Below, piece after piece: positions 17,147-44,495 of a DNA stretch of 64,000 nt. The DNA lies in NCBI RefSeq assembly GCF_000196615.1, contig NC_014306.1:4092001-4156000 (forward strand). Reading direction: 5' to 3'. Within the stretch, counting starts at the first letter, position 1; the number at the start of each line of letters is the position of its first letter. The notes under the pieces are model-generated. The model was not told the origin of the DNA. It did no database searches and saw only the letters and a program-made list of their open reading frames with translations. The translations under genes and the position numbers were made by a program. The stretch comes from Erwinia billingiae Eb661. Its GTDB lineage: Bacteria > Pseudomonadota > Gammaproteobacteria > Enterobacterales > Enterobacteriaceae.

Positions 17147-17148
17147 TC

Positions 17149-20201: not shown

Positions 20202-20230
20202 TTGACGCCCCGCTGCCAGTAAGGTTTAAT
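20202..20230 (+). promoter_or_regulatory. Sigma-70 promoter of tRNA-Phe
   Basis: -35 TTGACG (20202-20207), 17-base spacer, -10 TTTAAT (20225-20230), then a GC-rich discriminator GCGCCGC directly before the tRNA, as in promoters under stringent control. Confidence 0.75.
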
Positions 20231-20240
20231 GCGCCGCGTT

Positions 20241-20316
20241 GCCCGGATAGCTCAGTCGGTAGAGCAGGGGATTGAAAATCCCCGTGTCCTTGGTTCGATT
20301 CCGAGTCCGGGCACCA
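20241..20316 (+). tRNA. pheV: tRNA-Phe (GAA)
   Basis: 76 bases with encoded CCA end. Acceptor arms GCCCGGA and TCCGGGC pair, the D arm contains AGCTCAGTCGGTAGAGC, the anticodon stem GGGGA/TCCCC carries the loop TTGAAAA with anticodon GAA at 20274-20276, and the T loop is GGTTCGATTCC. Downstream of speC it is syntenic with E. coli pheV, a known integration site for genomic islands and SPI-7/PAPI-type elements. Confidence 0.98.
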
Positions 20317-29625: not shown

Positions 29626-30417
29626 TTATCTGAGGCAGCGAAGATACTTTTCGCCTGAACGCCGCACGATCTCGTCTGCGTTAGCAGTAATATCCTTTCC
29701 TTCAAACGCGCCATAAAGTTTCTTAAATTTCACCGAACTCAGGCGTTGAGTGATGTCGCTGACCGTTGCGGCGGGCAACGGCAGCATATTAGGGTAACTC
29801 CACATAAAGGAGACGCCCTTCCCGCCAGGCGCTACCTGGACGATGTCGCCGGAAAGCACGATGCCCTCCTCTCGCGCCCAGTGCAGAACGCAGCCGCCCG
29901 CAAAATGCCCGCCAAGACGTATCACGCGGACATCACCGGTCAACTCGAGGGTGTCGCCTTCCCAAAAGGTAATCCAGGGGCTGTCGCGCATCACCCATTC
30001 ACGGTCGCTGGCATGAAGGTAAATGGGGGCGTTAAATTCTTCAGCCCAATCTTGCATGGTGGTGTAGTAATGCGGATGCGATATCGCGATAGCCTTGAGT
30101 CCTCCCAGTGAGGCCACTAACGTTTTCGTGGCGTCATCCAGCGTGGCAATGCAGTCCCACAGAATATTGCCCTCAGGTGTACGCAGAATAAATGCGCGCT
30201 GATCAATGGCAAAATTTGGCACGGTGTGGATGCTGAGGAGAGCGCTGTCGTGTTGTTGCCACTTATTGCTGTGCGAAGCACAAAGGGCATTAAAATCAAC
30301 CCATTGCTGCCCGGTCGCGGGGACATACTGTCGTTCATCCTGGCATATCTTGCATTGTGCTGGCGGGGAATCGGTTATCTCATAAGATGTACCGCAGGCT
30401 TTGCATAACGTGATCAT
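29626..30417 (-). CDS. Metallo-beta-lactamase-fold hydrolase with N-terminal zinc ribbon
   Basis: 263 residues from ATG 30417 (MITLCKACGTSYEI), after GAGGAACACTCA. The first 30 residues hold two Cys-x2-Cys pairs (CKAC and CKIC), a small zinc ribbon. The MBL fold is seen in ILWDCIATLDD, AISHPHYYTTMQDW near residue 130, RLGGHFAGGCVLHW near 186 and GIVLSGDIVQV. The usual HxHxDH site is HPHYYT, lacking the Asp-His pair, so metal binding or chemistry may differ from normal MBL enzymes. It is downstream of, and on the same strand as, the LptF/G-like genes; a link with them is uncertain. Confidence 0.8.
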   Translation of the reverse strand: MITLCKACGTSYEITDSPPAQCKICQDERQYVPATGQQWVDFNALCASHSNKWQQHDSALLSIHTVPNFAIDQRAFILRTPEGNILWDCIATLDDATKTLVASLGGLKAIAISHPHYYTTMQDWAEEFNAPIYLHASDREWVMRDSPWITFWEGDTLELTGDVRVIRLGGHFAGGCVLHWAREEGIVLSGDIVQVAPGGKGVSFMWSYPNMLPLPAATVSDITQRLSSVKFKKLYGAFEGKDITANADEIVRRSGEKYLRCLR

Positions 30418-30487
30418 TGAGTGTTCCTCATTCTTACGCGGGATCCAGGGCAAGGGAGCGGTCTGCTCAGTTTGTCAGCCTCCGTAT

Positions 30488-31573
30488 CTAATACTTTAGC
30501 CGCCGATCGAAGCGATAGATCAACCCCACCGCCAGCCCCAGCAATAATACCGGCGGCACCAGCGTGGTTAGCTGGGCATTGATTGAGAACAGGATCCCGA
30601 GGTTCAGAACGATCTGGTAAACAATCCAGGTCACCAGTCCGACGATTACGCCCAGCGCTAAGCGACTTCCCAGTCCCGGCGCACGCGGCGTGCTGAAGGT
30701 GAAGGGAACCGCCAGCAGGATCATCGCCAGAATCAAAATGGGTCGCCCCGCTTTTTGCCACAATGCACTTTCATACTCGAGGCTTGGCTGCCCGGTTTTG
30801 TGCAGATAGACAATATAGTCAGCGAGCTGTCGGGCCGAGAAGCTTTCTGCGGGTAACGTGAGCCTCTTCAAATCTTCACCCGAAAACAGCGAATGCCACT
30901 GCATTTCTGGCAGGTTATTGACGGTTTCCTGCTGCTTATCCCAGCGCTTTTCGGTGACGTTGTGCAGCGTCCACATGCCCTTTCCGGCGATGGTCGCGCT
31001 CTGCGCAAAAATATAGGACTTCAACGTCAGGTCGGGCTGCCAGCTGAAGATTTCGATCCCCACCGGCTGGTTGCGATTATCCAACGATTGCACCGTCACA
31101 AAGTCATCCTGACTCCTGGCCCACAGCGCATTTCCGGCGTCTGAGTCACTTTCTGCTTTCGCCATTGCGACATTCTTTATCTGCAACGCCCGCTGTTGCA
31201 ACGGAGCGGCCACCCACTCATCTACCGCGCCGAGCGTCAGAGTCATCACCAGCCCGGCGCAGAACATTACCCGCGCAATGCGGGAGATCGAAAACCCGGC
31301 GGTGCGGATAGCGGTAAGTTCCAGGCTTTTGGATAGCTGTCCCAGCCCGACAATGCCGCCCAGCAAGGCAATAAAGGGCGCAAGATCCACCAGGCTACGC
31401 GGTAAGGTCATCACCACAACCAGCAGCGCCTGCGTCCAGCGATAGCCGCCTGGGGCCACATCATCCAGTTCGTTGATCAGGTTGAAGGTGGTAAACAGCG
31501 GGATCAGCAAACCGGCGGCCGCAGCAAATCCGATAAAGATATTCCGCATCAGATAGCGGCTGAAAATAGTCAT
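30488..31573 (-). CDS. LptG-like permease (YjgP/YjgQ family), paralogue
   Basis: 361 residues from ATG 31573 (MTIFSRYLMRNIFIGFAAAA); the open frame extends upstream but that part only reads through the neighbour in another frame. Six membrane helices, three before and three after a periplasmic beta-jellyroll domain (about residues 130-260), as in LptG. Start and previous stop overlap as ATGA, so it is coupled to the LptF-like gene. Canonical lptFG lie next to pepA in Enterobacterales, whereas this pair lies in the putative sphingolipid locus, so it is probably a dedicated lipid exporter subunit. It would need the shared LptB ATPase or another one; none is encoded here. Confidence 0.82.
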   Translation of the reverse strand: MTIFSRYLMRNIFIGFAAAAGLLIPLFTTFNLINELDDVAPGGYRWTQALLVVVMTLPRSLVDLAPFIALLGGIVGLGQLSKSLELTAIRTAGFSISRIARVMFCAGLVMTLTLGAVDEWVAAPLQQRALQIKNVAMAKAESDSDAGNALWARSQDDFVTVQSLDNRNQPVGIEIFSWQPDLTLKSYIFAQSATIAGKGMWTLHNVTEKRWDKQQETVNNLPEMQWHSLFSGEDLKRLTLPAESFSARQLADYIVYLHKTGQPSLEYESALWQKAGRPILILAMILLAVPFTFSTPRAPGLGSRLALGVIVGLVTWIVYQIVLNLGILFSINAQLTTLVPPVLLLGLAVGLIYRFDRRLKY

Positions 31574-32640
31574 CGGGAGAATTTCCGCAGCAGTGAGAAA
31601 TCGCGCGCCAGACAAAACGCCAGGCCAGTCAGCATCACCAGCGGAACCAGCCACACGCCGGGGATGGCAGGCAGCGATCCGTTGGCTACCAGCGTGCGGC
31701 AGACGTTGCCACCATAAAAAATGGCGGTAAACAGCAGCGTCAGCGGCAGCAAGGTGGCGTAACGTCCCTGTCGCGGTTTGGTGCGGCTGAGTGGAATGGC
31801 TAACAGCACCATCAGTAGGGTGCTGAGGCCGCGGCTTTCCCGCCACTGCAGCTCTGCTTTATCCGCCGGATCCGACGAGCACCATAAATCGGCCACGGGA
31901 GCCGACTTACGCCTGACTTCCTGACTTTCAATAAAGGGTTTCAACGCGATATTAAGGCTGTGATAGTGCTGCATATTGTCCTGCGCGCCCTCGCGATCCA
32001 GCACATACGCGGTGCCGTTCCTCAGGTTGACGCTGGGAGTGGCCGGAGAAGGATCGGTGACCACCACCGAATGCGCCCGGTACAGGTTGGTATTTTTCCC
32101 GGAGCGGGAGTAAATCAACGCGTCGGTAAGCTGATGGCTGGCGGGATCGATACGGCTGGCCATCACCATTCTGCCGCTGCCATTGACGTTAAATTTATTG
32201 GCCTGTAAATGGCTGACATCCAGCACCGACTGCGACTGTTGCTCCAGCCGGTAGATATTGCCATACGCCCACGGACGGCCGTAAAGAGACAGCAGCGTCA
32301 CCACCACCGCCAGTGGAATCGCTAAAAACAGCACCGCTTTATACAGGCGAACCGGGCTGGCACCGGCCGCAAATATTGCGGTGATTTCAGAGTCAGTGTA
32401 AAGCTGGCCCAGCGCGACGGCCGTGGCAACATACAGTCCAACCGGCAGCAGCATCTCCAGCGCAATCAATACTTTGTAGCAGACGACATCAAACACCACC
32501 TGCAGCGCAAGTGTGCCATTAGCGGCATCGGTCAGGTAGCGCTGTGCGGAATAACTGGCGAACATCACCACCAGAAAACCGACGATAACCATCACCAGTC
32601 GACGAATTTCAACCGTGATATAGCGTTCAATCAGCGACAC
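31570..32640 (-). CDS. LptF-like permease (YjgP/YjgQ family), paralogue
   Basis: 356 residues beginning MSLIERYITVEIRRLVMVIV, with the short amphipathic helix and first membrane segment typical of LptF. The coupling region GQLYTDSEITAIFAAGASPVRLY near residue 76 (cytosolic loop that docks on LptB) is well kept. Periplasmic domain about residues 125-255, then three membrane helices. It is 64 bases downstream of the YtfJ-like gene and overlaps the LptG-like gene by 4 bases. Confidence 0.85.
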   Translation of the reverse strand: MSLIERYITVEIRRLVMVIVGFLVVMFASYSAQRYLTDAANGTLALQVVFDVVCYKVLIALEMLLPVGLYVATAVALGQLYTDSEITAIFAAGASPVRLYKAVLFLAIPLAVVVTLLSLYGRPWAYGNIYRLEQQSQSVLDVSHLQANKFNVNGSGRMVMASRIDPASHQLTDALIYSRSGKNTNLYRAHSVVVTDPSPATPSVNLRNGTAYVLDREGAQDNMQHYHSLNIALKPFIESQEVRRKSAPVADLWCSSDPADKAELQWRESRGLSTLLMVLLAIPLSRTKPRQGRYATLLPLTLLFTAIFYGGNVCRTLVANGSLPAIPGVWLVPLVMLTGLAFCLARDFSLLRKFSR

Positions 32641-32704
32641 AACGGTTCTCCTTTCGCGCCCGGCCAGCCGCTTTTCTCAACAGGGCTCATCGTCAGGTTG
32701 CACA

Positions 32705-33283
32705 TCATGATTGGCCGCTGCCGATCAGCTTTTGCACCAGGCCGATCACATCGCTGACTTCGGTTGGGCTCAGCGACCCATCCTTGGCCCAACGTACGCG
32801 CCCTTCCCGATCGAGCACTAAAATGGTGGAGCTCTCTTCAGGCAGCTGCCAGGTTTTCCGCCCGATGCCGTCGCTGTCGACAACGAACTGTGCCCAGGGA
32901 TAATTCCTTTTGTTCTTCTCAATCTTCCCGCGGACGAAGAAACCGGAGCCGGGGATCGCGTCATCGGTGTTGACGATGGTGGTGGGCTGGAAGCGATCCT
33001 CGGGAAACTGTGCCTCTTTAACGGCGGTGATCAGCAGCGAGTTTTTCTTTTTCGCCGACGTACGGCCCGCGATGTACTGCACAACCCGCACCTTTCCCGC
33101 CAGTTCGCCGCTGTTCCAGTTTTGATAGCTGAATTCCCCTTCCCTGAGGATCAACTCGCCACGGTCGGCGATAGCCACGGGCGCAACGGGTTGGCCATAA
33201 ACAAAGTTATGAGCGGAGGCCGCCAACGGCAGCAACAGCAAGACCAGGGTCAACAGCTTGCCCAGCATCCCGGCGTTGATCAC
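32705..33283 (-). CDS. YtfJ-family periplasmic protein
   Basis: 192 residues with signal peptide ending LPLAASA before HNFVYGQPV. The core follows the YtfJ pattern: LAGKVRVVQYIAGRTSAKKKN, FQPTTIVNTDDAIPGSGFFV and TILVLDREGRVRWAKDGSLS, a thioredoxin-like fold without the CxxC pair. E. coli ytfJ is a separate single gene; this copy lies between the CHAD-like gene (ATGA overlap) and the LptF-like gene, hinting at a role in the exported-lipid pathway. Its molecular function is unknown. Confidence 0.82.
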   Translation of the reverse strand: MINAGMLGKLLTLVLLLLPLAASAHNFVYGQPVAPVAIADRGELILREGEFSYQNWNSGELAGKVRVVQYIAGRTSAKKKNSLLITAVKEAQFPEDRFQPTTIVNTDDAIPGSGFFVRGKIEKNKRNYPWAQFVVDSDGIGRKTWQLPEESSTILVLDREGRVRWAKDGSLSPTEVSDVIGLVQKLIGSGQS

Positions 33284-34113
33284 TGCGCGTGAAACCTGGC
33301 GAGCAGGGATTCCAGCCGCTGGCGGATATCGATATCCAACACCGCAGGCGCGTCGTAGGATTTACCGCCAGACAGCTTGTCGGCCACCATCACATCATGC
33401 CGGTCACCCATCAGCCCGTTAATGGCGGCCATAAAGCGGGAAATTTTCCGCGCTTCGACGTTATCAGGATCGAGGGATCTGAGGGTGTCGTAAAAGGACA
33501 CCTGCTGACTGACGATTTTGCGGACGTCGTGAAACTCTTTGCCGGTCAGCATCGGGTTGGCAATCAACGTTTGCAGTTGCCGCAACTGATCCTGACGATA
33601 GGCAATAAATCCGCTTTCGGTTTCTAACTCTAAATGACGCAGGCCATAGCTGACCTGTGACCAGATCGGCTTGCTGAGGAACACCCGCAGAATATTGCCG
33701 TAGAGATTCAGGTTCTTTTTATTGCCATTACGGAACGCATCCTGGAAGTGGCCAAGAAGCACGGTGGTCAGATGGAACAGATGGCCCGACTGATGTTTTT
33801 TACCGTACAGGCGCTGAGCAAAACGTAAATGCTTATAGCGCGCGCGAATATATTTGTAGCGTAAACGCGTCGACGCCGACATTTCGCATCCCCGGAGGAA
33901 ATCATTAACCAGACCCAGTAACTCCTCACGGGTGAAGCCGTCCTCCCAAAATTGCAGGCAGAGCGCATAATTATTTCCCAGTCCTTCCTGAGAGCATGGC
34001 AAAGCGATCTGCTGCGGCAGACTGAAATTCGCGTCAACGATGTCATCCTCTTCCACCGCGGCAAATAATAACTCCGTGGTTTCTACAGGAAATTTCTTCC
34101 AGCTATTATCCAT
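33280..34113 (-). CDS. CHAD-like helical protein
   Basis: 277 residues from ATG 34113 (MDNSWKKFPVETTELL), which follows CAAGAGAG and overlaps the flippase gene by 8 bases. Predicted all-helical and soluble. Two segments resemble the CHAD domain: a His-x2-Arg-Lys start in FHDVRKIVSQQVSFYDTL near residue 195 and LMGDRHD near 238. CHAD domains bind polyphosphate or other phosphorylated ligands, but the similarity is modest and I do not recognise a closer relative. It is embedded in the operon yghS-yghR-yghQ-this-ytfJ-lptFG, so it should act in the same process. Confidence 0.5.
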   Translation of the reverse strand: MDNSWKKFPVETTELLFAAVEEDDIVDANFSLPQQIALPCSQEGLGNNYALCLQFWEDGFTREELLGLVNDFLRGCEMSASTRLRYKYIRARYKHLRFAQRLYGKKHQSGHLFHLTTVLLGHFQDAFRNGNKKNLNLYGNILRVFLSKPIWSQVSYGLRHLELETESGFIAYRQDQLRQLQTLIANPMLTGKEFHDVRKIVSQQVSFYDTLRSLDPDNVEARKISRFMAAINGLMGDRHDVMVADKLSGGKSYDAPAVLDIDIRQRLESLLARFHAQ

Positions 34114-35449
34114 TTTGTTGGCTCTCTTGAGGCAGGGTAAACCGCAGGGCATTGCGATGGCGCCAGGCATGTAACGTCGGGATCATCGTTAATAATACGT
34201 CTAAGGATTGCCCAGCAAAATAGGCAAGCGCCGCGCCCTGAACGCCGAAAAAGTGCGACATGCCGATCAGCAGCGCAATATAACAGGCCGAAGAAATCGT
34301 CTGCACAATCAGGAATGCCCGCTGCTTGCCCGCCATAAACAGCAAGGATTCTTGCGGGAAGCCCAGCATAGAAACGATGATCGCACCGAGCATAATTTGC
34401 ATCAGGTCATAGGCCTGCAAATATTTATAGCCGAAGACCACGGAAATAAGCGGCTTGCCGACGACCAGCACCAGCACGGCCACCGCCACCCCGATTCCAC
34501 CGGCAAACAGCGCGGAGCGCAGGCCGAGCTGCCACGGCTTGCTGGTGCGCGGATCGAGGCGCATGATTTCAGGGTAAAAGCTTTTCTCCATCAGCTTGGC
34601 GGGCGTGCCGGTGGCATCAAAGAAGGTCAGCGCAATTTTAAACAGGCCGGCCGCCGCCGGACCTAAAACGATCCCAACCAACACCGTACTGCAGGAGTTT
34701 CGCGCCGCCCAAATCGTATGGGCGAAATTGGTTGTCCAGACAAAGTCCCACGCGCCTTCAATCCGGCGAGCGGTGTTCATCAGTCGGGGAGTTAACGCAT
34801 TATGAATCTCTCTGGATCGCAACTCGCGCGCGGCGAACCACCAAAACAGCGAGCCACCGATCAGGTTGGAAACGTACCAGGTAATAATAAAGCCGGGGAA
34901 ACCCAGCTCGAAATAGAAGCAGAAGAGACTGCCGACCGCCTGCAGGAACGGCTTAATCGCCTGCTGTACGGCAATTAAGTCGAAGCGGTTAAACGCCCGC
35001 AAAATACCGGTCGGCGTGGACGAGGTCATCGACGGAATTAACGTGCAGTAAAGCACCGCCAGCCACAGGCTGTGAGTATCCAGTCCCAGCGAGTGAGAAA
35101 GGAAAGGCAGCAGCGCCATTCCACCCAATACAGCCACGACGCTGCTAAGGATATCGAGCCCGAAAGAGAATGAAATCACGTCGCGGAAGCGGGAGATATT
35201 CTTGCCTTCCAGTGCCGGAGTGCCGAATTGCACCACGAATTGCCAGGTCTGGAACTTAATTAAATCACTGACCGCTTTGGTATAGGCCTGAATAACCACC
35301 AGTACGCCAAACATTTCTGTCGACATGCCTTTGCCGGCACAGGAAAGCGCCACCAGGCCCAGCAAGGCACTTGCCACACTGCCGGATCCCAGATAAGCGG
35401 CATTTTTCAGCATCGTGCGAAAGGCGCCATCCTTAAACCAGTGCTTCAT
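34106..35449 (-). CDS. yghQ: Flippase of the MOP/MATE superfamily, YghQ-like
   Basis: 447-residue inner-membrane protein with 12-14 hydrophobic segments. It has the layout of Wzx-like flippases: N-terminal GSGSVASALLGLVALSCAGKG, paired helix repeats and a second half starting near residue 230. The identification as YghQ rests on its neighbours: two P-loop genes upstream and a third divergent one reproduce the E. coli yghQRS/yghT layout. Its start overlaps the YghR stop (ATGA). In the context of lipid synthesis genes it may flip a lipid or lipid-linked sugar across the inner membrane; no substrate is known. Confidence 0.78.
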   Translation of the reverse strand: MKHWFKDGAFRTMLKNAAYLGSGSVASALLGLVALSCAGKGMSTEMFGVLVVIQAYTKAVSDLIKFQTWQFVVQFGTPALEGKNISRFRDVISFSFGLDILSSVVAVLGGMALLPFLSHSLGLDTHSLWLAVLYCTLIPSMTSSTPTGILRAFNRFDLIAVQQAIKPFLQAVGSLFCFYFELGFPGFIITWYVSNLIGGSLFWWFAARELRSREIHNALTPRLMNTARRIEGAWDFVWTTNFAHTIWAARNSCSTVLVGIVLGPAAAGLFKIALTFFDATGTPAKLMEKSFYPEIMRLDPRTSKPWQLGLRSALFAGGIGVAVAVLVLVVGKPLISVVFGYKYLQAYDLMQIMLGAIIVSMLGFPQESLLFMAGKQRAFLIVQTISSACYIALLIGMSHFFGVQGAALAYFAGQSLDVLLTMIPTLHAWRHRNALRFTLPQESQQNG

Positions 35450-36204
35450 GATGTGGAACCGGCGGCAACAGCCGTGATCGAATCCAGCGCTTTCGCCAAC
35501 ACTTCATCGTAAGGCGCGCGGGCATCCAGTTCGATAATGCGCGAACCGTTGTACTGAATTCTGACCATGGCAGAAATTTTATCTTCTAACTCTTCATAAC
35601 TGTGGTCCGGTTTACGCGCATAGGCGGTATCCACATCAATATCCAGACGCAAAATAAGCTGCGGACGAATCAGCGCCATCTGCTGATATAAGCGTCGCTC
35701 ACTTTCGGCCAGTCGGCTCATTAACCAGCCTTTGGCCCGTTCCACGCCAATGCCGGGACCATCATAATAAAAACCCGATATTTCAGCCTGAGGATAACGA
35801 TCGCTGATCACCAGTACGCCGCTCTGCGCCAGGCGGATCGCTTTCTGTAAATTAGACGAACGCCACAATGAAAAACCGTACATGATCAGAGCCGCCCACA
35901 GTGCCGGAGGCTTATTACTCATGCGCTGGGTTTTATCCGACTTTGCCGCCAGCCGACGTTCAAGCCAGACACCAATAACCGGTAATCGTTTAATTTTATC
36001 GCCATCCTCACCGGATATCAGGCCTAAATAACGGCGTTCAGTTACCCTTTGCTTTTGCAAATTCCTGACTAAATCAGCCGTCAGCGTGGATTTTCCGGTA
36101 CCGTCACTGCCGACAACCGCAATAAGCCCCGAAATACAGGAATAACACTCATCCACGTCATCTTCTGCACGCTCGGTGTTAATTTTCTTCAGCATGATGG
36201 TCAT
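35446..36204 (-). CDS. yghR: Thymidylate-kinase-like P-loop protein YghR
   Basis: 252 residues, the E. coli YghR length. Walker A VVGSDGTGKSTL near residue 32, the LID-proximal ISDRYPQAEISGFYYDGP near 132 with the family Asp-Arg pair, and DIDVDTAYARKPDHSYEEL near 208. The start may be 36204 or the in-frame ATG at 36195. It overlaps yghS by 26 bases and yghQ by 4. It resembles thymidylate kinase in fold, but the ARKPDHS motif is specific to this group, so the phosphoryl acceptor is probably different. Confidence 0.82.
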   Translation of the reverse strand: MTIMLKKINTERAEDDVDECYSCISGLIAVVGSDGTGKSTLTADLVRNLQKQRVTERRYLGLISGEDGDKIKRLPVIGVWLERRLAAKSDKTQRMSNKPPALWAALIMYGFSLWRSSNLQKAIRLAQSGVLVISDRYPQAEISGFYYDGPGIGVERAKGWLMSRLAESERRLYQQMALIRPQLILRLDIDVDTAYARKPDHSYEELEDKISAMVRIQYNGSRIIELDARAPYDEVLAKALDSITAVAAGSTS

Positions 36205-36937
36205 GAAATAACTCTGTCTCTGAATAGGTTAATGAGGCCTGAATCGCACGTAATGATTCATCCAGAATTTTATTCTCCGGCTCTCTGCCATCGAGATCGA
36301 GAATGGTTGCGCCATTGAAGTTCAGATGCGGAATAACGGCAATTTTCTCGTGCAGGGCGGCGAGCGAATGATCGGGTTTGCGGGCATGCGCGGTCTGCGC
36401 ATCAATATCCAGACGGATTAATAATAATGGCGGATATGAGGCCATCCATTGGTAGAGCTTTTGCTCTTTATTTCTGAGCCAGCCAATCCAGCGATTTCCG
36501 CCGTGGGTTTTGGCCAACTGCGGTCCATCAAAACGAAAACCTGGCACTTCGGCCTGCGGGTAGCGATCGGCGATCAGCAACTGACCCGGGCGATTTTTTC
36601 TTAGCATTTTCCGAAACTTATAAGCTCGCCAGAACGAGAGCAGAAAAATCACCAGCGCGGTAACATTGCCGGGAGGCGTGGCAGGACGCTGGTGAACGCG
36701 ATCGGATTTCTTCAGCAAATAGCGGCCAAACGGCGCACCAATTATTGGCAGATCGGCGATCCACTTTCCTATCAATCCTGATGACTGACCGAGATAGAGA
36801 AATTCCGTCGGCTGTTGCGAAGAGAAGTGCTTAACCAGACTGGCAGCTAACGTCGATTTTCCGGAACCATCACAACCTGTAATAGCGATTACGCGCACCG
36901 GGGAATAACGCGACTGGGAATTTATTTTCTGGCGCAC
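36179..36937 (-). CDS. yghS: Thymidylate-kinase-like P-loop protein YghS
   Basis: 252 residues, paralogue of the YghR-like protein. Walker A ITGCDGSGKSTLAASL near residue 19, IADRYPQAEVPGFRFDGP near 120 and RLDIDAQTAHARKPDHSLAAL near 191. First gene of the leftward unit that continues into yghR, yghQ, the CHAD-like gene, ytfJ-like and lptFG-like genes. The three paralogues (R, S, T) in one locus suggest a multi-subunit kinase or successive phosphorylation steps; this is inference. Confidence 0.82.
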   Translation of the reverse strand: MRQKINSQSRYSPVRVIAITGCDGSGKSTLAASLVKHFSSQQPTEFLYLGQSSGLIGKWIADLPIIGAPFGRYLLKKSDRVHQRPATPPGNVTALVIFLLSFWRAYKFRKMLRKNRPGQLLIADRYPQAEVPGFRFDGPQLAKTHGGNRWIGWLRNKEQKLYQWMASYPPLLLIRLDIDAQTAHARKPDHSLAALHEKIAVIPHLNFNGATILDLDGREPENKILDESLRAIQASLTYSETELFHDHHAEEN

Positions 36938-37288
36938 AACAAGCTATCCACAGGTAAAAAAGCCATTTTATTCTGTTCCTCTATGGGTTCAAGTCATTTA
37001 TCGCCGGGTAGCAGGTATTGTTAAATACCGGCCAAGCGGGCATCTCAACCGTCTTTTGATGCTATTTTTCTTATTATTTCGTGCTCTAAAATTCACAAAC
37101 TCATGCCCTGATACGTATATTTACCCGATCAAAAACAGAATAAATCACTCAGTAAAAACCCAACCGCCTGATTTAATTTCCCGTACCCAGACCCGTCAAC
37201 AATTAGCATTTTATAACCATGGCGCGCTAACGACTTCTTGCGGTCAAAATGGTACATTTCATTCAGTGTTGATAAAGAGCAAGGTATT
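36938..37288. other. Divergent promoter region yghS / yghT
   Basis: About 350 AT-rich bases between two divergent transcription units, with no gene visible. It must hold the promoters of both arms of the putative lipid locus; AT-richness is compatible with H-NS silencing. Confidence 0.5.
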
Positions 37289-38023
37289 ATGACCTCCAGA
37301 CTCCCGCCGCTTATTGCGGTAATTGGCAGTGATGGTTCCGGAAAGTCTACTGTCTGCGAACATCTGATTGTCCATGTCAAAAAATATGGTCCTGCGGTAA
37401 GGGTTCACCTCGGTAAACAGGCCGGTAATGTCGGACGCGCCGTTTCACAACTGCCATTAATGGGCAAATCCTTCGAACGCGCTATTGAGCGCAATACCAA
37501 AAAAGTCAAAACGAAAAAGACCAAACTGGGTCTGTTGCCGTCGGTGGTGATAATGACCTTTGTCGTTCGCCGTTTATTACGTTTTCGCCGCATGCTGGCT
37601 TATCGTCGACAAGGGCTGATGGTCTTAACCGACCGTTTTCCTCAGGCGCAAATTCCCGGTGCCTATGACGGAACGGTGTTCCCGCCAGACACCAAAGGCA
37701 ACGGCCTGGTAAAATGGATGGCCGGGCGCGAGCGTTCTGCCTTCAGGTGGATGGCCGCACATAAGCCGGACCTGGTGATCAAACTGAATGTTGATCTCGA
37801 TGTGGCCTGTGCACGTAAGCCCGATCACCGCCGCGAACAACTCAGCAAAAAAGTGGCTGCCACACCGCTACTGACTTTTGAAGGCGCACAGCTGGTTGAT
37901 ATTGATGCCAATAAACCTGTCGATCAGGTGATTGCCGCGGCGGAAAAAGCTATCGCTGAATTCATGGCCGCCCAGGGTTATGTGCCGGTTTATGAAGGTG
38001 AGTCGGTCGCCCACTCGCAATAA
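37289..38023 (+). CDS. yghT: Thymidylate-kinase-like P-loop protein YghT
   Basis: 244 residues from ATG 37289 ([20 protein letters not shown]), after AAGG; an earlier frame start has no signal. Walker [12 protein letters not shown] near residue 11, [16 protein letters not shown] near 114 and [19 protein letters not shown] near 173 show that it is the third member of the YghR/S/T set. Transcribed alone, divergent from yghS and convergent with the serine palmitoyltransferase-like gene, as yghT is divergent from yghS in E. coli. Confidence 0.82.
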
Positions 38024-38039
38024 CCTCCGCTTTCATCCT

Positions 38040-38071
38040 GCATTCCCTGCTCATGCATGAGCAGGGAATGC
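38040..38071. terminator. Perfect palindrome between yghT and the spt-like gene
   Basis: Arms GCATTCCCTGCTCAT and ATGAGCAGGGAATGC around GC. It is in the 50-base gap between converging genes and probably ends both, though without a T tract. Confidence 0.7.
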
Positions 38072-38075
38072 GCGG

Positions 38076-39248
38076 TTACTTTTTCAGTTCCGCAAACGCC
38101 TGAATGATTTTATCGATCTCTTCATCACTGTGTGCCGCATTGACGCTACAGCGCAGCAGCGTGACGCCAGACGGCGCCGCCGGCGGCAGAACCAGGTTGA
38201 CGTAAACCCCTTTCGCTATCAGATCGCGCCAGAAATTCAGGCCATCTTCTTTCGAGCCGATCATCACCGGCACCACCGGACTGATCCGTGGCCCCAGCTC
38301 ATAACCAATCTGCGCCAGCCCGTTATAAAGACGGTTGGCATTGCTCCACAGCTTTTTGCGTAATTCAGGCTGCTGCGCGATTTTCTGCAGGGAGGCACGC
38401 ACCGAAGCAATGCTGGATGGCGAAGGTGACGCGGTGAAAATATAGGGGCGACTGCTGTAGCGCAGCACGTCCATGGCTTTACTGCCCACGGCAAAGCCAC
38501 CAATCGAGGCCAGGCTTTTGCTGAAGGTGCCGAGGATAATATCGACCTCTTCTTCCACACCCAGCTCTTCGGCCAGACCGCGACCGTTTTCGCCCATCAC
38601 GCCGAAGGAATGGGCTTCGTCGACCAGCAAATACCCGCCAAACCGGCGCTTGATATCGACAATTTCCACCAGTGGAGCCACGTCGCCGAGCATGCTGTAA
38701 ATGCCTTCGACGATGATGATCGCCTCTTTTGCCCGTTCGCCCAGACGGACCATCCGGCGTTCCAGATCGTTAGCATCGTTGTGACGGAAACGAATAATTT
38801 CAGCGCCGCCCAACGCACAGGCATCATAAATACTGGCGTGGCTGTCGGCATCAATCAGCACCACCGCGCCAGGGCCCGCAAGGGTGCTGATGACGGCGAG
38901 GTTAGCGGTATAGCCCGTGGAGAAAACGATGGCACAGGGGCGGTTGAAAAAGGTCGCCAGCTCCTGCTCCAGTGCCAGGTGTGAACCGTAGCTGCCGTTT
39001 GCCATACGCGAGCCGGTGGTGCCGGTTCCCTGCAGGGCTAAAGCGGCCTGACCATCAGCAATGGCCTGCGCATCAAAGGTCAGTCCAAGGTAATTGTTGG
39101 TTCCGGCCAGCACAATTTTCTGGTCGCCAATGCGCCCTTCCGTCGCGGAGTAAATCTCATCGATACAGGTTCCAAAAGGATTCAGTCCGGACGTCTGGAA
39201 TTGCTCACGCTCACCCGCGAGGCGTGAAAACTTATCATACAGACCCAT
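38076..39248 (-). CDS. Alpha-oxoamine synthase, serine palmitoyltransferase-like
   Basis: PLP enzyme of the KBL/AONS/SPT family, about 390 residues from ATG 39248 (MGLYDKFSRLAGER), which follows GGAGAG; a longer frame start at 39305 lies inside the acp gene. Motifs: NNYLGLTFD near residue 49, GTGTTGSRMANGSYGSHLALE, DADSHASIYDA (His stacking on PLP), VDEAHSFGVMG (Asp), and the Schiff-base Lys in GTFSKSLASIGGFAVGS. These enzymes condense an amino acid with an acyl thioester. A dedicated acp overlapping by 14 bases, plus the reductase and acyl-ligase genes next door, favour serine palmitoyltransferase (3-ketosphinganine synthesis) over KBL or BioF. Confidence 0.83.
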   Translation of the reverse strand: MGLYDKFSRLAGEREQFQTSGLNPFGTCIDEIYSATEGRIGDQKIVLAGTNNYLGLTFDAQAIADGQAALALQGTGTTGSRMANGSYGSHLALEQELATFFNRPCAIVFSTGYTANLAVISTLAGPGAVVLIDADSHASIYDACALGGAEIIRFRHNDANDLERRMVRLGERAKEAIIIVEGIYSMLGDVAPLVEIVDIKRRFGGYLLVDEAHSFGVMGENGRGLAEELGVEEEVDIILGTFSKSLASIGGFAVGSKAMDVLRYSSRPYIFTASPSPSSIASVRASLQKIAQQPELRKKLWSNANRLYNGLAQIGYELGPRISPVVPVMIGSKEDGLNFWRDLIAKGVYVNLVLPPAAPSGVTLLRCSVNAAHSDEEIDKIIQAFAELKK

Positions 39249-39495
39249 TGGCGCTCTCCAGGTGAGGTTGCAGCGCGACAAGCAATTGCTCAGGCGTTCT
39301 GACATCCAGCAGAATATTAATCGGAATAGAAATATCCAGTTTGTCTTCCAGCATCATCAGCAAATCCAGCACTCTGATGGATTCCAGGCCAAGATCGTTA
39401 ACGAGATCGCTGTCCGGCCTGACATCCACCCCGCCCTTTACGATGTCCTGTAAGCAGGTAAGAATATAATCCATCACTTCGTCGCGATTTAGCAT
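39235..39495 (-). CDS. Dedicated acyl carrier protein
   Basis: 86 residues, acidic four-helix type. The phosphopantetheine site is Ser39 in DLGLESIRVLDLLMMLED. It is not the housekeeping AcpP, whose site is DSLDTVE. The gene is 30 bases after the reductase gene and overlaps the start of the synthase, so it probably carries the fatty acyl chain from the adjacent acyl-AMP ligase to the synthase, as the Caulobacter sphingolipid ACP does. Confidence 0.88.
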   Translation of the reverse strand: MLNRDEVMDYILTCLQDIVKGGVDVRPDSDLVNDLGLESIRVLDLLMMLEDKLDISIPINILLDVRTPEQLLVALQPHLESANGSV

Positions 39496-39525
39496 AAGAA
39501 CGTTGAAAACCTCTACTCGTAAGAA

Positions 39526-40440
39526 TTAAAACAGTCTTTCACGCAGCGCGCGTTCCAGACTGACCTCTGGAAACCAGTGAATGGTTTCAGATAAAGATGT
39601 GTTGCTTGCCGACCAGTCCTGATGGGTTAATTCGCGGATTTTGCTGTGCGTCAGCATCGGCTCAGTTCTGGCCAGCCGGTTCCACAACATACTGACGTCG
39701 GCGAAGAATTTAAGCGCTGGCAACGGCACGCCCAGCAGCCGCACCGGACCTCCGCGCACCGCTGAACCGATCGCCTTCAATCGCAGCCAGTTGTATCCGC
39801 CCTGCACGCCATCACAGAGTTCGCAGGTTTGCGTCTCCGGCACGTCGGCAACCAGCCACTGGCTGACGGCTTCGGCAAGATCGCTGACGTGCAGAAACGA
39901 CAGCTTCGCTTCGGGTGAGCCCAGCCGGGGAAGCACGCCGCGTAACAGCCAGTCGAAAACCGGTTTCAGCTCTTTATCACCAGGCCCGTAAACAGCCGTC
40001 GGGCGAAATATGCCCAGAGACATGCCAACGGCCATTGAGGTCAGCTCGCGCTCGGCGACAAATTTCGATCGCGCATACCAGGACAGCTGAGGATGGCGGG
40101 CTGCCAGAGACGACATAAACAGGAATCGCTTACAGCTGCCGCTTAACCGGGCCGCCTGCATCAGGCCGACGCTGCCGTTAACGTTGCATTGAGTGAAGGT
40201 ATCTTGCGAACTGCCCCGCACCTGCCCCGCGCAGTGAACGACACTGGTCGCACCGCGCACCAGCTCCCAGAGTGAAGCCTGATCTTCCAGCGAGCCCTGG
40301 ATCCACACCAGATTGTCATCGGTGGAGGGTTGCGGCGTGCGGGTTAAGGCCCGCACCCTGAAGCCCCGCGACAGCAGATTCCCGACGATGTGTTTCCCAA
40401 TGAAACCCGTTGCGCCCGTCACTGCGACCGTGGTGCTCAT
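39526..40440 (-). CDS. NAD(P)-dependent epimerase/dehydratase family reductase (CerR-like)
   Basis: 304 residues of the extended SDR family. Cofactor motif VAVTGATGFIGKHIV (residues 5-19), CAGQVRG near 72, and active-site Tyr-x3-Lys in WYARSKFVAE near 122, with the following GIFRPTAVYGPGD block. In Caulobacter a protein of this family, CerR, reduces the keto group of the oxidised ceramide, and the gene neighbourhood is comparable. The start shares one base with the acyl-AMP ligase stop (TGATG). Without the neighbours it could only be called an epimerase-like protein. Confidence 0.78.
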   Translation of the reverse strand: MSTTVAVTGATGFIGKHIVGNLLSRGFRVRALTRTPQPSTDDNLVWIQGSLEDQASLWELVRGATSVVHCAGQVRGSSQDTFTQCNVNGSVGLMQAARLSGSCKRFLFMSSLAARHPQLSWYARSKFVAERELTSMAVGMSLGIFRPTAVYGPGDKELKPVFDWLLRGVLPRLGSPEAKLSFLHVSDLAEAVSQWLVADVPETQTCELCDGVQGGYNWLRLKAIGSAVRGGPVRLLGVPLPALKFFADVSMLWNRLARTEPMLTHSKIRELTHQDWSASNTSLSETIHWFPEVSLERALRERLF

Positions 40441-42188
40441 CAGGCCAGCCCAGCCAACTGCACAGCAGGATAAAGGGCGGCGGATAACCAGCGCTTTTTG
40501 GCTTCTGCTCGCGCCGGTTTACCCGAGGAAGTGCGTGGAATACTGTGAGGCGGCAAAAGTTCGATATCCACCGCCACGCCGAATTCGCTTTGAATGCTGG
40601 CCGACAGCGAGTGAACAATTTGCTCACGGCGCTCCTCAGAACCGATCCTGCACTGGATCTGCAAAATAATTCTGGCGCCCTCGCCGTGCTCTTCGGTGAC
40701 AAACGCAATTGCATCGCCGGCGTGAATTTCCGGCTCCGCTTCGGCAACGTATTCAATATCCTGCGGCCAGATATTACGGCCACGAATAATAATTAAGTCT
40801 TTCTTGCGGCCGGTGACGTAAAGGTTTCCGCCTGACAGATAACCCAAATCGCCGGTATCCATCCAGCCCGTCGCCTTGATCATTTGCTGCGAGACATCGT
40901 CACGGAAATAACCGTTCATCAGGCTGGGGCCGGCGATATAAATATGCCCGACCTGATGTTCCGGCAACACCGATCCATTCTCACTGCGAATATCAATGCG
41001 ATGACCAGGCAACGCCTTGCCGCAATTCACAAATGAGGAGGTGGCCAGCGTATTTTTGCCTGGCGCGACGGCGCGGCCTTCGTATTCCAGCACTTCGCGG
41101 TCGATCTCATGAATTTGCGCACCGGCGTTCTCTTCCGAGAAACTCACCGCCAAAGTGTTTTCAGCTAAGCCGTAGCAAGGCATAAAAGCGTCAGGGTCGA
41201 AATGAAGATCGCTGAAATGCTCCCCGAACTGCTTAAGCAGCTCGGCAGGAATAGGTTCCGCGCCGACGCCGGCCACGCGCCAGCTGGAAAGATCCAGCCC
41301 GGCCAGCTCTTTCATGTTGCTGCGACGCAGGCACAGATCGTAGCCAAAAGGTGGCGCGACGGTGACCGTGCCACGGTTTTTATCGATCAGCTTTAACCAC
41401 TGTAAAGGCCGCATGGCGAAATCTTGCGTCCGCAGATAATCCACTGAAAGCTGCGTCGCCACTGGCGTTAGCAGAAAACCGACCAGCCCCATATCGTGAT
41501 AAAACGGCAGCCAGGACACGCAGCGGTCGCCAGCGCGTAATTTAATGCCGTCATGGCTGATAACCTGCAGATTGGCCATCACGGAACGCTGGGTAATAAT
41601 CACGCCGCGCGGGAAACGCGTGCTGCCGGAGGTATATTGCAGGTAGGCAATATCGTCGGCGGACGGTTTTGTTAACGCAATATCCCGTTCCGGCAGGGCA
41701 TTGAATTCGGCATTGCTGAGAATATGCGGAGGCGGTGCATTCTCTGTGGCTGAGCTGATTAACGGCACCCACTCGTCACTGCTAATAATCGCCGCCGGCG
41801 CGCAGCTGGAAATCAATCCTTTCAGCTTGACGATATACGACGCCCGCTGGCCGATGCCCATCGGAATGGCCAACGGAACCGCGACTAAGCCGGCATACTG
41901 GCAGGCAAAGAACGCTTCGACAAAACCGACGCTGGTCTCTGCGATCAGCGCAACGCGGTCGCCTTTTTTCAGATCCAGCGACAGCAAACGACGAGCGCCG
42001 CTTATCGCCCGCTCTTTGAGCGTCCGGTATTCCAGCACGGAAACCAGTTGATTACGCCGGTCGTAGAAGTTCATTCCTGTGCTCCCCTGGGCGGCGTAAT
42101 CTAACGCCTCCACCAGAGAGCCAAAATCGGCATAGCGCATAGGAAGAGAGTGAGTTGAGCGTGTTTCAGACATAGACAAATCAGCCAT
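40440..42188 (-). CDS. Fatty acyl-AMP ligase / acyl-ACP synthetase
   Basis: 582 residues of the ANL superfamily, FAAL type. Adenylation motif YLQYTSGSTRFPRGV near residue 186, VSWLPFYHDMGLVGFLL near 224, PCYGLAENTLAVS near 338, TGWMDTGDLGYLSGG near 440, RKKDLIIIRGRNIWPQDIE near 461 and the catalytic Lys near the C-terminus in RTSSGKPARAE. FAALs load fatty acids on ACP rather than CoA. First gene of the unit ligase-reductase-acp-synthase; start at 42188 or ATG 42173, neither with a strong ribosome binding site. Confidence 0.87.
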   Translation of the reverse strand: MADLSMSETRSTHSLPMRYADFGSLVEALDYAAQGSTGMNFYDRRNQLVSVLEYRTLKERAISGARRLLSLDLKKGDRVALIAETSVGFVEAFFACQYAGLVAVPLAIPMGIGQRASYIVKLKGLISSCAPAAIISSDEWVPLISSATENAPPPHILSNAEFNALPERDIALTKPSADDIAYLQYTSGSTRFPRGVIITQRSVMANLQVISHDGIKLRAGDRCVSWLPFYHDMGLVGFLLTPVATQLSVDYLRTQDFAMRPLQWLKLIDKNRGTVTVAPPFGYDLCLRRSNMKELAGLDLSSWRVAGVGAEPIPAELLKQFGEHFSDLHFDPDAFMPCYGLAENTLAVSFSEENAGAQIHEIDREVLEYEGRAVAPGKNTLATSSFVNCGKALPGHRIDIRSENGSVLPEHQVGHIYIAGPSLMNGYFRDDVSQQMIKATGWMDTGDLGYLSGGNLYVTGRKKDLIIIRGRNIWPQDIEYVAEAEPEIHAGDAIAFVTEEHGEGARIILQIQCRIGSEERREQIVHSLSASIQSEFGVAVDIELLPPHSIPRTSSGKPARAEAKKRWLSAALYPAVQLAGLA

Positions 42189-42813
42189 AGATTCAAATCA
42201 CCAAATGCGACAGGCAGGGTTGGCGAGAGAGTTGAAGTTTTATTATGAAATTTTTTATAATCCGTTATTTAACTCTTTTTATTCCGCCATTAGCTTCGCA
42301 GGCAGTTTTGCATTCGCAAACCACCCATTACTAAAGAAAAAGAGTCTCACTGGCATTCATATTCAGGATGCCAGGGTATATTCCAGCACCTTCACATGTT
42401 CATTACTGAACCTAAACACTTCATAAACAGTAGCCGGAAGCCGGTTAAAAGTGAATAGCTGATTCACGATGATTATGACAAAAGCATTAAGTGATAAAAA
42501 ATAGCCGCACTCCAGCAAAAGAAACTCAGTAGACTAAAAACGCTCACGGGTCTTTACAAAACTAATAGCACGAAAGCGCAAAAGCATAAATTGCTTAACC
42601 AGTAACGGATGGACTCTGCCAATAATTTCATAAGCACGTAATGTTCAAAATAATACTGCCCAGCGTGAATCCGGATCCTTATTAACAAATAATGCTTTTG
42701 CCATCAAACGCATCAGTATTCAGTTCTGTTTATTCATCGCGTAAAGCACTCAATATTGCCTGCCAGATAGCCACGGGCTTCTTCGAACAGACGAAAATAA
42801 TTAAAGGTTTTTT
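42189..42813. other. Divergent intergenic region, acyl ligase / yghO
   Basis: About 620 AT-rich bases with no supported gene. Divergent orientation means that it carries promoters for the ligase unit and yghO. Length and composition suggest several regulatory sites, but I recognise none. Confidence 0.5.
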
Positions 42814-43938
42814 ATGATTCACATTGAAAAAGTCGCTGACAAGCGCGATCTGAAGGCATTTATCGCTTTTCCCTCCTCACTGTACCGCGACGATCCCAAC
42901 TGGATTGATCCGCTGTTTATTGAGCGTGAGGAGCATCTTTCAAAGAAAAACCCAAGCGTTGAACATATTGAGTGGCAGGCGTTTCTGGCGAAAAAAGACG
43001 GTAAGGTTGTCGGGAGAATTACTGCACAAATCGACAGTCTGCATCGTGAACGTTATGGCCAGGATACCGGGCATTTCGGCATGATTGATGCGATTGACGA
43101 TCCGGCGGTTTTCGAGGCGTTATTCGCGGCCGCCGAAGCCTGGCTGAAGTCAAAAGGGGCGGTAAAGATTACCGGCCCTTTCAGCATGAATATCAACCAG
43201 GAAAGCGGCTTATTAATCGAGGGATTTAATACGCCGCCTTCTGCTCTGATGACGCACGGCAAAACCTATTACGCTAATTACCTTGAACAGCAAGGCTATG
43301 CACAAGGCATTGATCTGTTGGCCTATTGGATGAAACGCACCGATCTGCATTTTGAACCTTCGCTGACTAAGCTGATGTCTCAGATGAGAAAAAAGGTGAG
43401 CATTCGTCGCCTTAATCGTAAGAAGTTTGCCGAAGAAATGCAGGTGCTGCGGGAAATCTTCAACTCCGGTTGGCAGAATAACTGGGGGTTTGTGCCCTTC
43501 ACGGAACACGAATTCGCCACCATGGGCGATCAGCTGAAATATCTGGTGCCTGACGACATGATTTATATCGCCGAAGTGGATTCGTTGCCCTGCGCATTTA
43601 TCGTTGGCCTGCCAAATATTAACGAGGCTATCGCTGGCTTAGAGGGCCGTCTATTCCCCTTCGGCTGGGCAAAACTGTTATGGCGACTGAAGGTCAGCGG
43701 CGTGCGCACAGCGCGGGTGCCATTGATGGGGGTTCGCCATGATTTCCAGTTCAGTCGGATGGGGCCAATTATGGCGCTGTTGCTGATTGAGGCGTTACGA
43801 GATCCCTTTGCAAAACGCAATATTGATGCGCTGGAGATGTCGTGGATCCTGGAATCCAACACCGGCATGCGAACGATTCTGGAGCGCATTGGTGCGGTGC
43901 CCTATAAGCGCTATCGCCTGTTTGAAAAGACGCTCTGA
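42814..43938 (+). CDS. yghO: YghO-like GNAT-fold acyltransferase, candidate ceramide synthase
   Basis: 374 residues, start ATG after AAAGG. N-terminal segment HIEKVADKRDLKAFIAFPSSLYRDDPNWIDP and the KDGKVVGRITAQIDSLH block near residue 58 resemble an N-acyltransferase fold; KITGPFSMNINQESGLLIEGF near 121 and the C-terminal ALEMSWILESNTGMRTILERIGAVPYKRYRLFEK are the conserved YghO blocks. In Caulobacter the bacterial ceramide synthase bCerS is a member of this unusual group, acylating the amine with a second fatty acid. It lies divergent from the ligase-reductase-acp-synthase genes, completing the set needed for ceramide. Confidence 0.8.
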   Translation: MIHIEKVADKRDLKAFIAFPSSLYRDDPNWIDPLFIEREEHLSKKNPSVEHIEWQAFLAKKDGKVVGRITAQIDSLHRERYGQDTGHFGMIDAIDDPAVFEALFAAAEAWLKSKGAVKITGPFSMNINQESGLLIEGFNTPPSALMTHGKTYYANYLEQQGYAQGIDLLAYWMKRTDLHFEPSLTKLMSQMRKKVSIRRLNRKKFAEEMQVLREIFNSGWQNNWGFVPFTEHEFATMGDQLKYLVPDDMIYIAEVDSLPCAFIVGLPNINEAIAGLEGRLFPFGWAKLLWRLKVSGVRTARVPLMGVRHDFQFSRMGPIMALLLIEALRDPFAKRNIDALEMSWILESNTGMRTILERIGAVPYKRYRLFEKTL

Positions 43939-44135
43939 GCCATCTGCAGACGCTATTTACCGTCGACTCTCGCGGCGGTGTTGCTTACCCGCAGCCGGCC
44001 ATGTGGCACTGTACTGTAAGTGAATATCGCCGGGAGATGATTAATTAAAATAATTAATCATTAAAAGCCCCAAATAACTCACCTGACGTTATTAATTCGG
44101 TAGGGTAATTCAAACTCATTTATAAGAGTAAACGC

Positions 44136-44495
44136 ATGTCCTTTGAAAAGAAAAAAGGCATCAATCGCTTCATCAGCAGCGTCAATAATTCCTGGGAAGG
44201 TTTGAAAGATGCCATCTTCACCGAGGATGCTTTTCGCCAACTCATCATCATTAACGCATTCTTACTGATCATTACATTTTTTCTGGACATCACAAAAACA
44301 GAAAGACTGCTGTTAATTGCCACCTGCTTTATTTTGCTGATCGTGGAATTGTTGAATACCGCCATTGAAACGGTGGTTGATCGTATCTCTTTAGAGATTC
44401 ATCCCCTCTCTAAACGCGCCAAAGATATTGGCGGTGCGGCACAGTTAGTCGCCGTGGTGATGACGATCATCATTTGGCTGAGCGTTATCTTTTAG
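44136..44495 (+). CDS. DgkA-family lipid kinase (diacylglycerol kinase-like)
   Basis: 119 residues, three membrane helices after an amphipathic N-terminal helix. Active-site blocks EDAFRQLIIIN near residue 28 and VELLNTAIETVVDRIS near 68, with Glu and Asn for Mg-ATP, and SKRAKDIGGAAQL near 92 are kept. It is about 200 bases after yghO on the same strand. The usual dgkA lies near lexA/plsB in Enterobacterales, so this is likely a second copy. E. coli DgkA phosphorylates ceramide in vitro, so a ceramide kinase role is plausible here; it is inference. Confidence 0.88.
   Translation: MSFEKKKGINRFISSVNNSWEGLKDAIFTEDAFRQLIIINAFLLIITFFLDITKTERLLLIATCFILLIVELLNTAIETVVDRISLEIHPLSKRAKDIGGAAQLVAVVMTIIIWLSVIF

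Follow-up and report, generated by a model that had tools for sequence, protein, structure and literature searches.

The window analysed here is a stretch of 64,000 nucleotides of the Erwinia billingiae Eb661 genome (contig NC_014306.1, positions 4,092,001 to 4,156,000). Between positions 30488 and 44495 it carries a 14-kb block of genes (Table 1) for which comparisons with known proteins support a role as a locus of ceramide synthesis, modification and export; the product is inferred from the genes. The core set consists of 13 genes: yghO, aasR, cerR, acpR, spt, lptG2, lptF2, ytfJ2, hypC, yghQ, yghR, yghS and yghT. Their grouping is not a matter of chance, as other genera carry this set together too.

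A preliminary description of this DNA had named most of these genes, and all that it named are present in the window as intact open frames at the coordinates it gave. The Pfam and NCBIfam scan of the locus (15 open reading frames, ORFs, at 29626-44495) agreed with its MOP flippase, second LptF/LptG pair, YtfJ-like protein and DgkA, and its three P-loop kinases gave weak matches. Its gene set needed two amendments: the 452-aa ORF at 30488-31846 is too long, LptG2 proper being 30488-31573, and the gene at 33280-34113, named hypC in this analysis, had gone unnamed in spite of being part of the set.

Table 1. Genes of the putative sphingolipid locus, with positions in the window and the evidence for each assignment.
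Gene and product	Position	Strand	Evidence
LptG2, second LptG-type permease	30488..31573	-	PF03739 221 bits (cut-off 27.9)
LptF2, second LptF-type permease	31570..32640	-	PF03739 186 bits (cut-off 27.9)
YtfJ2, YtfJ family	32705..33283	-	PF09695 214 bits (cut-off 24)
HypC, all-helical, predicted CHAD-type fold	33280..34113	-	
YghQ-like MOP-superfamily flippase	34106..35449	-	PF13440/PF01943 above cut-off; 70-72% identical to E. coli YghQ
KinR = YghR, P-loop kinase-like	35446..36204	-	
KinS = YghS, P-loop kinase-like	36179..36937	-	~70% identical to YghS; conserved P-loop, DRxPQ, RKPDH
KinT = YghT, P-loop kinase-like	37238..38023 (start perhaps 37289)	+	~71% identical to YghT; P-loop, DRxPQ, RKPDH
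spt, serine palmitoyltransferase	38076..39248 (open frame to 39305)	-	NF047599, PDB matches, tree
acpR, dedicated acyl carrier protein	39235..39495	-	PP-binding PF00550 42.9 bits (cut-off 20.8); LGLES motif in common with the E. coli protein
cerR, NAD-dependent epimerase/dehydratase-type reductase	39526..40440	-	Epimerase PF01370 88 bits (cut-off 20.9); 66% identical to the E. coli protein
aasR, fatty acyl-AMP ligase / acyl-ACP synthetase	40440..42188	-	PRK09192 / NF006624 876 bits (cut-off 600); 74% identical to the E. coli protein
cerS/YghO, presumed N-acyltransferase acting on the long-chain base	42814..43938	+	~80% identical to E. coli YghO
dgkA2, second diacylglycerol kinase, candidate ceramide kinase	44136..44495	+	PF01219 111 bits (cut-off 22.3)

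Ceramide synthesis genes

The presence of five ceramide functions within 14 kb, namely a serine palmitoyltransferase (SPT), its own acyl carrier protein, a CerR-like reductase of the short-chain dehydrogenase/reductase type, a fatty acyl-AMP ligase and YghO, was borne out by family models and sequence identities. The synthase scored 612.9 bits on the NCBIfam model NF047599 'serine palmitoyltransferase' (cut-off 500), compared to 331 bits on the BioF model (cut-off 426) and 245 bits on the KBL model TIGR01822 (cut-off 493). The top ten rows of a PDB search were all serine palmitoyltransferases (best 2x8u, E 2.6e-116), while KBL- and BioF-type enzymes started only at E 3.6e-60; the stretches GTFSKS, DADSHAS and VDEAH were common to the window SPT and SPT chains in two printed alignments. 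In a tree of 61 rows, a branch with support 100/99 set the window SPT and its kin apart from KBL, BioF and the enzymes of Bacteroidota and Spirochaetota; the outermost rows of this tree are long and their placement is unsure, and frames shorter than 330 aa as extracted (L024, L025, L035, L065, L078) were omitted. A grouping of the synthase with KBL or BioF, which the preliminary description had named as speaking against a ceramide locus, was thus rejected both by the model cut-offs and by the tree.

Five clustered ceramide genes, yghO among them, were published for E. coli BL21 in 2022 (PMC9386255). According to that paper, AcpR of BL21 carries phosphopantetheine and is acylated by AasR, and SPTs, the one of E. 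coli included, prefer acyl-AcpR. In the window acpR lies directly upstream of spt with aasR nearby, the arrangement given for these SPTs in the same paper. Formation of 3-oxo-sphinganine has been shown for the E. coli enzyme (PMC9386255), to which the window SPT is ~80% identical; the latter probably has this activity too. YghO had no family match in Pfam or NCBIfam, and its role in ceramide synthesis is taken from PMC9386255.

Distribution across genomes

The survey of gene neighbourhoods proposed in the preliminary description was carried out, and yghQRST and spt recurred in one gene set across Enterobacterales loci, which were seen in Erwinia, Pantoea, Serratia, Sodalis and Shimwellia besides E. 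coli. Thirteen loci of enterobacterial type were found via SPT (L022-L033, L035), and ten of them had all 13 genes (the ytfJ2 of L024, matched in two pieces, was scored as present). L027 and L032, with 12 genes each, are both cut by the end of the stretch or contig; L032 bears the name Martelella alba, but the placement of its SPT among those of Enterobacterales led us to include it with them. The stretch L035 (Serratia sp. M24T3, 9796-11209) has a second acpR-spt pair alone, and the strain also has the full locus L024. Besides the window genome, 12 congeners carry spt. The locus was fetched from 11 of these (not from G330), and nine had all 13 genes, L072 and L078 being incomplete. Across these 24 maps, read by eye, the gene blocks stand in at least six arrangements, and dgkA2 adjoins yghO in 10 of the 24.

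Head-group candidates followed spt closely. Among 37 congeners spt was found in 13 and HypC in exactly the same 13, while the kinases were found in 12 of the 13 and in none of the 24 genomes without spt. The kinase-less genome with spt (G001) is an assembly in 130 contigs, and its spt contig is short. Among 295 genomes of the order, spt was present in four, and HypC in three of those four and in no other. None of these counts is corrected for kinship. In a sample of the phylum, with at most seven candidates scored per genome, eight genomes had a kinase match, and the six strong matches (best E at most 3.7e-68), one of them in the window genome itself, all came with an SPT above the cut-off. 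Four of the strong-kinase genomes belong to another class (probably they are alphaproteobacteria); in record coordinates their kinases lie 0.5-1.5 Mb from spt, yet near HypC. Leaving aside deletions of the K-12 type, strong kinase matches in our samples occurred only alongside SPT.

The locus in E. coli

In E. coli strains JJ1886, 6EVA and BL21(DE3) the locus lies between glcC and pitB in the order yghO, aasR-cerR-acpR-spt, lptG2-lptF2-ytfJ2-hypC-yghQ-yghR-yghS, yghT. Out of 5,426 complete E. coli genomes, 4,006 had the 13-kb locus covered by at least 80% at one place; by the same measure spt was found in 4,047 genomes and yghS-yghT in 4,569. Hence, for the majority of these genomes the term leftovers does not apply. 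The earlier suggestion that the E. coli genes are leftovers of a sphingolipid pathway fits MG1655, where 1,195 bp of IS5 take the place of 8,383 bp found in JJ1886 (L017 11573-19955), and is too narrow for the species. What remains in MG1655 is yghO, the IS5, a shortened yghQ and yghRST. The DgkA gene, which stands beside yghO in the window, is not part of the E. coli locus.

Strains of K-12 differ in this pathway, with NCM3722 as an intermediate. NCM3722 keeps spt, with one IS5 separating it from acpR; another IS5 replaces L017 18600-19955 and has the same right junction (19956) as in MG1655. The simplest history would be that an IS5 was already present at yghQ in the ancestor shared by the two strains, and that the MG1655 line later underwent a further deletion. 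In the NCM3722 stretch (L108, NZ_CP011495 4371061-4385073) we also observed that aasR, cerR, lptFG2 and the kinases are kept along with spt, hypC is lost, and ytfJ2 and yghQ are cut.

Across five Escherichia loci the mean ratio of nonsynonymous to synonymous substitution rates (dN/dS) per gene, from a simple pairwise count, ranged from 0.022 to 0.113 for all 13 genes. All 13 genes thus look to be under purifying selection, and the status of a relic was rejected on these values.

Export genes

LptG2 of the window is ~25% identical to LptG of K-12 and 63% identical to the LptG of the E. coli spt locus; for LptF2 the respective values are ~26% and 66%. Taken together, LptF2 and LptG2 of the window and of E. 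coli are about 25-29% identical to LptF and LptG of K-12. Such genes are not confined to loci with kinases. From the 17 class-sample genomes that had an SPT-model match without kinases, six gammaproteobacterial loci (six genera, five families) were fetched, and all six had LptF2/LptG2 homologues at most 10 kb from spt. In a tree with K-12 as the sole housekeeping pair, the LptF2 of the six loci formed a clade with the enteric LptF2 that excluded K-12 LptF (support 100/99), and the enteric LptG2 formed one with that of two of the six loci, to the exclusion of K-12 LptG (support 96/93); four LptG2 frames outside 300-430 aa were omitted. In the near-identical loci L038 and L039, distant LptF/G-like genes follow spt. 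LptF2/LptG2 are probably the constant export part of spt loci, with head-group genes that vary.

The idea of such an exporter comes from Caulobacter, where head-group genes have been assigned and LptC2/F2/G2 with a flippase were suggested as the exporter, the transport itself not being tested there (PMC11324152). Apart from that paper, the literature searches found one other since 2021, on mite symbionts, that mentions LptF and LptG along with sphingolipids, transport and the outer membrane. The loci described here extend the proposal for LptF2/G2 to other gammaproteobacteria. By analogy with that system (PMC11324152), we propose that LptF2/LptG2 may carry the sphingolipid to the outer membrane. 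No LptB, LptC, LptA or LptD paralogue was found among the locus genes as scanned, so these components would be shared with lipopolysaccharide (LPS). YtfJ2 is ~62% identical to K-12 YtfJ and has a hydrophobic stretch at residues 1-25; its location is probably periplasmic.

Head-group genes

The three P-loop proteins matched the Thymidylate_kin family weakly, one with 29 bits (cut-off 27) and the other two with 19 and 21 bits. All three keep the Walker A motif, and in the kinase alignment the P-loop and DRxPQ were retained in 12 of 12 rows; the kinases also have an RKPDH signature. For the predicted model of KinR, all 50 listed structural matches were thymidylate (dTMP) kinases. Three proteins (P0121, P0124 and the partial P0123), read by eye, hold parts of two kinases in a single chain (P0121 starts past the first P-loop), which suggests that the kinases act together.

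HypC had no family match, and no hydrophobic segment was found in it. The three best fold matches of its predicted model were CHAD chains, one of them solved with polyphosphate. It conserves K..R...K at positions 0/+3/+7, which matches the polyphosphate-binding residues H253/R256/R260 of CtCHAD (PMC6537752) in spacing, with equivalence judged by spacing alone. The Pfam family CHAD (PF05235) did not match most HypC members; one divergent member reached 15.6 bits against a cut-off of 25.6. Sequence-based searches for CHAD membership were negative, whether they used single proteins, a profile run on PDB sequences or an hhalign comparison to one YgiF sequence. The predicted fold and the conserved basic residues hint that HypC could bind polyphosphate.

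The DgkA protein of the locus is the second of two copies in the genome. Because the diacylglycerol kinase of E. coli accepts ceramide, DgkA2 is a candidate ceramide kinase.

Other genes near the kinases or near spt vary between loci. PAP2 phosphatases stand beside the kinases in L065, L068, L094 and L096, and a PAP2-like match was found in L092. A scan of L121-L126 (20 proteins, none from L124) found NeuB, an epimerase, cytidylyl- and nucleotidyl (NTP) transferases and a fatty acid hydroxylase near spt in L125, an NTP transferase in L123 and two glycosyltransferases in L126. Among the genes by spt in L125 (6464-7513) there is also a phospholipase D-like protein weakly similar to the C-terminal domain of polyphosphate kinase. 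In Caulobacter, the head-group enzymes include CpgB, a GGDG-type lipid kinase (PMC10331486), and CpgD, a cytidylyltransferase (PMC13228409); neither a CpgB-type (GGDG lipid kinase) nor a CpgD-type (NTP transferase) gene had a Pfam match among the 15 ORFs at 29626-44495. The enteric head-group set consists of three thymidylate-kinase-like proteins and the protein with the predicted CHAD fold. This combination, with strong kinase matches found only along with SPT, hints at a phosphate-rich, perhaps oligophosphate, head group.

Proposed pathway and alternatives

We consider it very probable that these genes form a functional pathway in which ceramide is made, receives a head group and is then delivered to the outer membrane. 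AasR would load a fatty acid onto AcpR and SPT would condense it with serine, steps shown elsewhere for the BL21 orthologues. By homology to relatives described in the literature, YghO would add the second acyl chain and CerR would reduce the keto group. From gene context, KinR, KinS and KinT with the CHAD-fold protein may modify the ceramide, and the YghQ flippase may move the modified ceramide across the inner membrane. The product could then be carried to the outer membrane by an Lpt machine with LptF2/LptG2 in place of the permeases for LPS and with the housekeeping LptB, LptA and LptD shared, YtfJ2 presumably acting in the periplasm; DgkA2, where present, may make ceramide-1-phosphate.

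Several observations weigh against this account. The literature searches (mostly title listings) gave no sphingolipid extracted from a wild-type enterobacterium. Kinases also occur apart from SPT: at least ~500 E. coli genomes retain yghS-yghT without spt, E. coli of the MG1655 type has kinases without spt, and in the phylum sample two weak kinase matches (E 4.4e-30 and 2.3e-35) came from genomes without an SPT over the cut-off. In the other class the co-occurrence of kinases and SPT is weaker than it looks, as its weight depends on the base rate of SPT there. Conversely, kinases were absent in 17 of 17 other class-sample genomes with an SPT-model match (15 above the cut-off), at most ten kinase candidates being scored per genome; therefore, kinases are not needed for ceramide itself and are ruled out as a universal part of bacterial sphingolipid synthesis. 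One genome of the order (G093) has spt and kinases without HypC, and the confidence of the KinR model is modest. On the export side, the locus has no LptC2 or LptB2, whereas Caulobacter has LptC2; some branches of the Lpt tree are long; and LptF2/G2 were not found within 20-40 kb in the divergent stretches L065, L068 and L092-L093 (the last two from one genome), which hold the kinases and most of the core.

Two alternatives deny a working ceramide pathway altogether. That the synthase is a KBL- or BioF-like enzyme with another substrate, and the block makes a non-sphingolipid, is scarcely credible: these enzymes are relatives of SPT and the window protein does score on the BioF model, but it stays below both of their cut-offs and above that of SPT, the tree separates it from them, and the biochemistry of the E. 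coli enzyme (PMC9386255) argues the same way. A decaying relic, functionless in this genome and in E. coli, would agree with the loss of most of the locus in MG1655, with one E. coli record that has IS1 inside spt, and with 3 of 13 congener SPT matches flagged with one internal stop. All three flagged matches, however, extend to position 392 of the 394 in the profile, the place at which the gene would normally end, and the low dN/dS, the many E. coli genomes that keep the locus and the open frames throughout the window make this reading very improbable.

The other two alternatives refine the working pathway and concern the head group. The kinases may activate a small molecule, an alcohol or an acid (for example glycerate or a sugar), which an enzyme encoded elsewhere joins to ceramide phosphate, giving a product like the ceramide phosphoglycerate of Caulobacter. 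In Caulobacter, genes nearby serve to make phosphoglycerate head groups (PMC11324152, PMC13228409), and MobA-like NTP transferases (L123, L125) or glycosyltransferases (L126) are encoded in spt loci of other gammaproteobacteria. Since neither an NTP transferase nor an enzyme for cytidine diphosphate-alcohols appears among the Pfam matches and annotations of the enteric locus, and two kinases stand together with HypC in the four genomes of the other class (with a glycosyltransferase between them in L097), we regard this as a tentative option, short of an even chance. In the other version the head group is a phosphate chain: DgkA or one kinase would make ceramide-1-phosphate, the thymidylate-kinase-like proteins would extend it, and the ceramide pyro- or oligophosphate would be bound by the CHAD-fold protein and moved by the MOP flippase. 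The motifs kept in every row of the kinase alignment, the fold of KinR (thymidylate kinases phosphorylate a phosphate), the CHAD fold matches of HypC with the residue spacing of CtCHAD (PMC6537752), the PAP2 phosphatases beside the kinases in four loci and the annotation of the E. coli locus, which shows no nucleotidyltransferase or glycosyltransferase, are all consistent with it; we still hold it to be unlikely. The broadest form of this idea, in which most E. coli and many other Enterobacterales make a ceramide whose head group is a pyro- or oligophosphate by means of YghR/S/T, the CHAD-fold protein, YghQ and LptF2/LptG2, is a long shot; such a lipid would have been overlooked because MG1655 lost the genes through IS5.

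If the pathway works as proposed, sphingolipids would regularly belong to the envelope of most E. coli and of additional Enterobacterales, which MG1655 cannot show. Functions would follow for yghO, yghQ, yghR, yghS and yghT. Our literature searches found one paper that deals with yghO together with ceramide and SPT (PMC9386255), four that mention two or more of yghQ, yghR, yghS and yghT, with no sphingolipid in their titles, and none tying yghQRST to sphingolipids. There would also be a dedicated Lpt-type route of sphingolipid export, which PMC11087976 and PMC11324152 list as unknown, and the chemistry of the head group would differ from the one in Caulobacter. Since BL21 has the complete locus, the pathway is directly testable.

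Probable movement of the locus, and its surroundings

The window segment 30488-44524 matches L022, a contig named Pantoea brenneri, as one stretch of 14,043 bp at 94.9% identity, and KinR shares 98% identity both with its Pantoea brenneri counterpart and with proteins named Erwinia billingiae; three congener stretches match the window piecewise at about 67-75%. Outside this cassette no L022 match was found at E 1e-20 or better, with 403 bases of L022 available on the lptG2 side and 4,766 on the dgkA2 side. As the homology stops at the ends of the gene set, the spread of the cassette is best read as recent horizontal movement. Terminal repeats of 14 bases were not found at the cassette ends; there was one 12-base inverted match.

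On the left, hemW, trmB, mutY, mltC and speC (five of nine E. coli genes tried; 435-20316) precede tRNA-Phe, a setting that resembles the one upstream of pheV in E. coli. The sphingolipid locus starts about 10 kb downstream of tRNA-Phe in the window genome and about 19 kb in E. coli, and none of the seven glc-side and pitB-side genes of E. coli that were tried was found in the window. Between 24312 and 28470, in a low-GC stretch 4-8 kb downstream of tRNA-Phe, lies a Gabija-like anti-phage system with GajA (686 bits) followed by the GajB helicase in two ORFs, which match consecutive parts of one profile. Integrase-core or transposase-type genes stand near it at 20754-21914 and 22991-23821. To the right of the cassette we observed an Ail/Lom-type outer membrane barrel directly adjacent (44567-45130), and next to it an ORF of filamentous-haemagglutinin type that includes a VENN pre-toxin domain (45806-48385).

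Comparison with known systems

The ceramide core and the idea of an exporter made of Lpt proteins and a flippase are already in print, so that the novelty is lower than the preliminary description held. An earlier account assigned SPT and bCerS to the cytoplasm but CerR to the periplasm, with no flippase or transporter identified at that time (PMC11087976). The closest system is the locus of E. coli BL21(DE3), which has the five ceramide genes and all 13 genes of the set as in the window, and differs in gene order, in the lack of dgkA2 and in its neighbours; the consulted parts of the BL21 paper (PMC9386255) do not treat lptFG2, ytfJ2, hypC and yghQRST. The CC_1168-CC_1152 cluster of Caulobacter crescentus (PMC11324152) likewise combines the ceramide core with LptF2/LptG2 and a flippase in one region. 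Its head group is made via CpgB and CpgD among others, whereas the enteric locus has P-loop kinases and a putative CHAD-fold protein, and no LptC2. With the CHAD domains (PF05235; PMC6537752), HypC appears to share the helical fold, as judged by structure comparison of its predicted model, and conserved basic or histidine positions, but no significant sequence similarity. The kinases of the locus share the P-loop kinase fold and the DR motif with thymidylate kinases, and differ from them in being three paralogues with weak Pfam scores and with DRxPQ and RKPDH motifs of their own.

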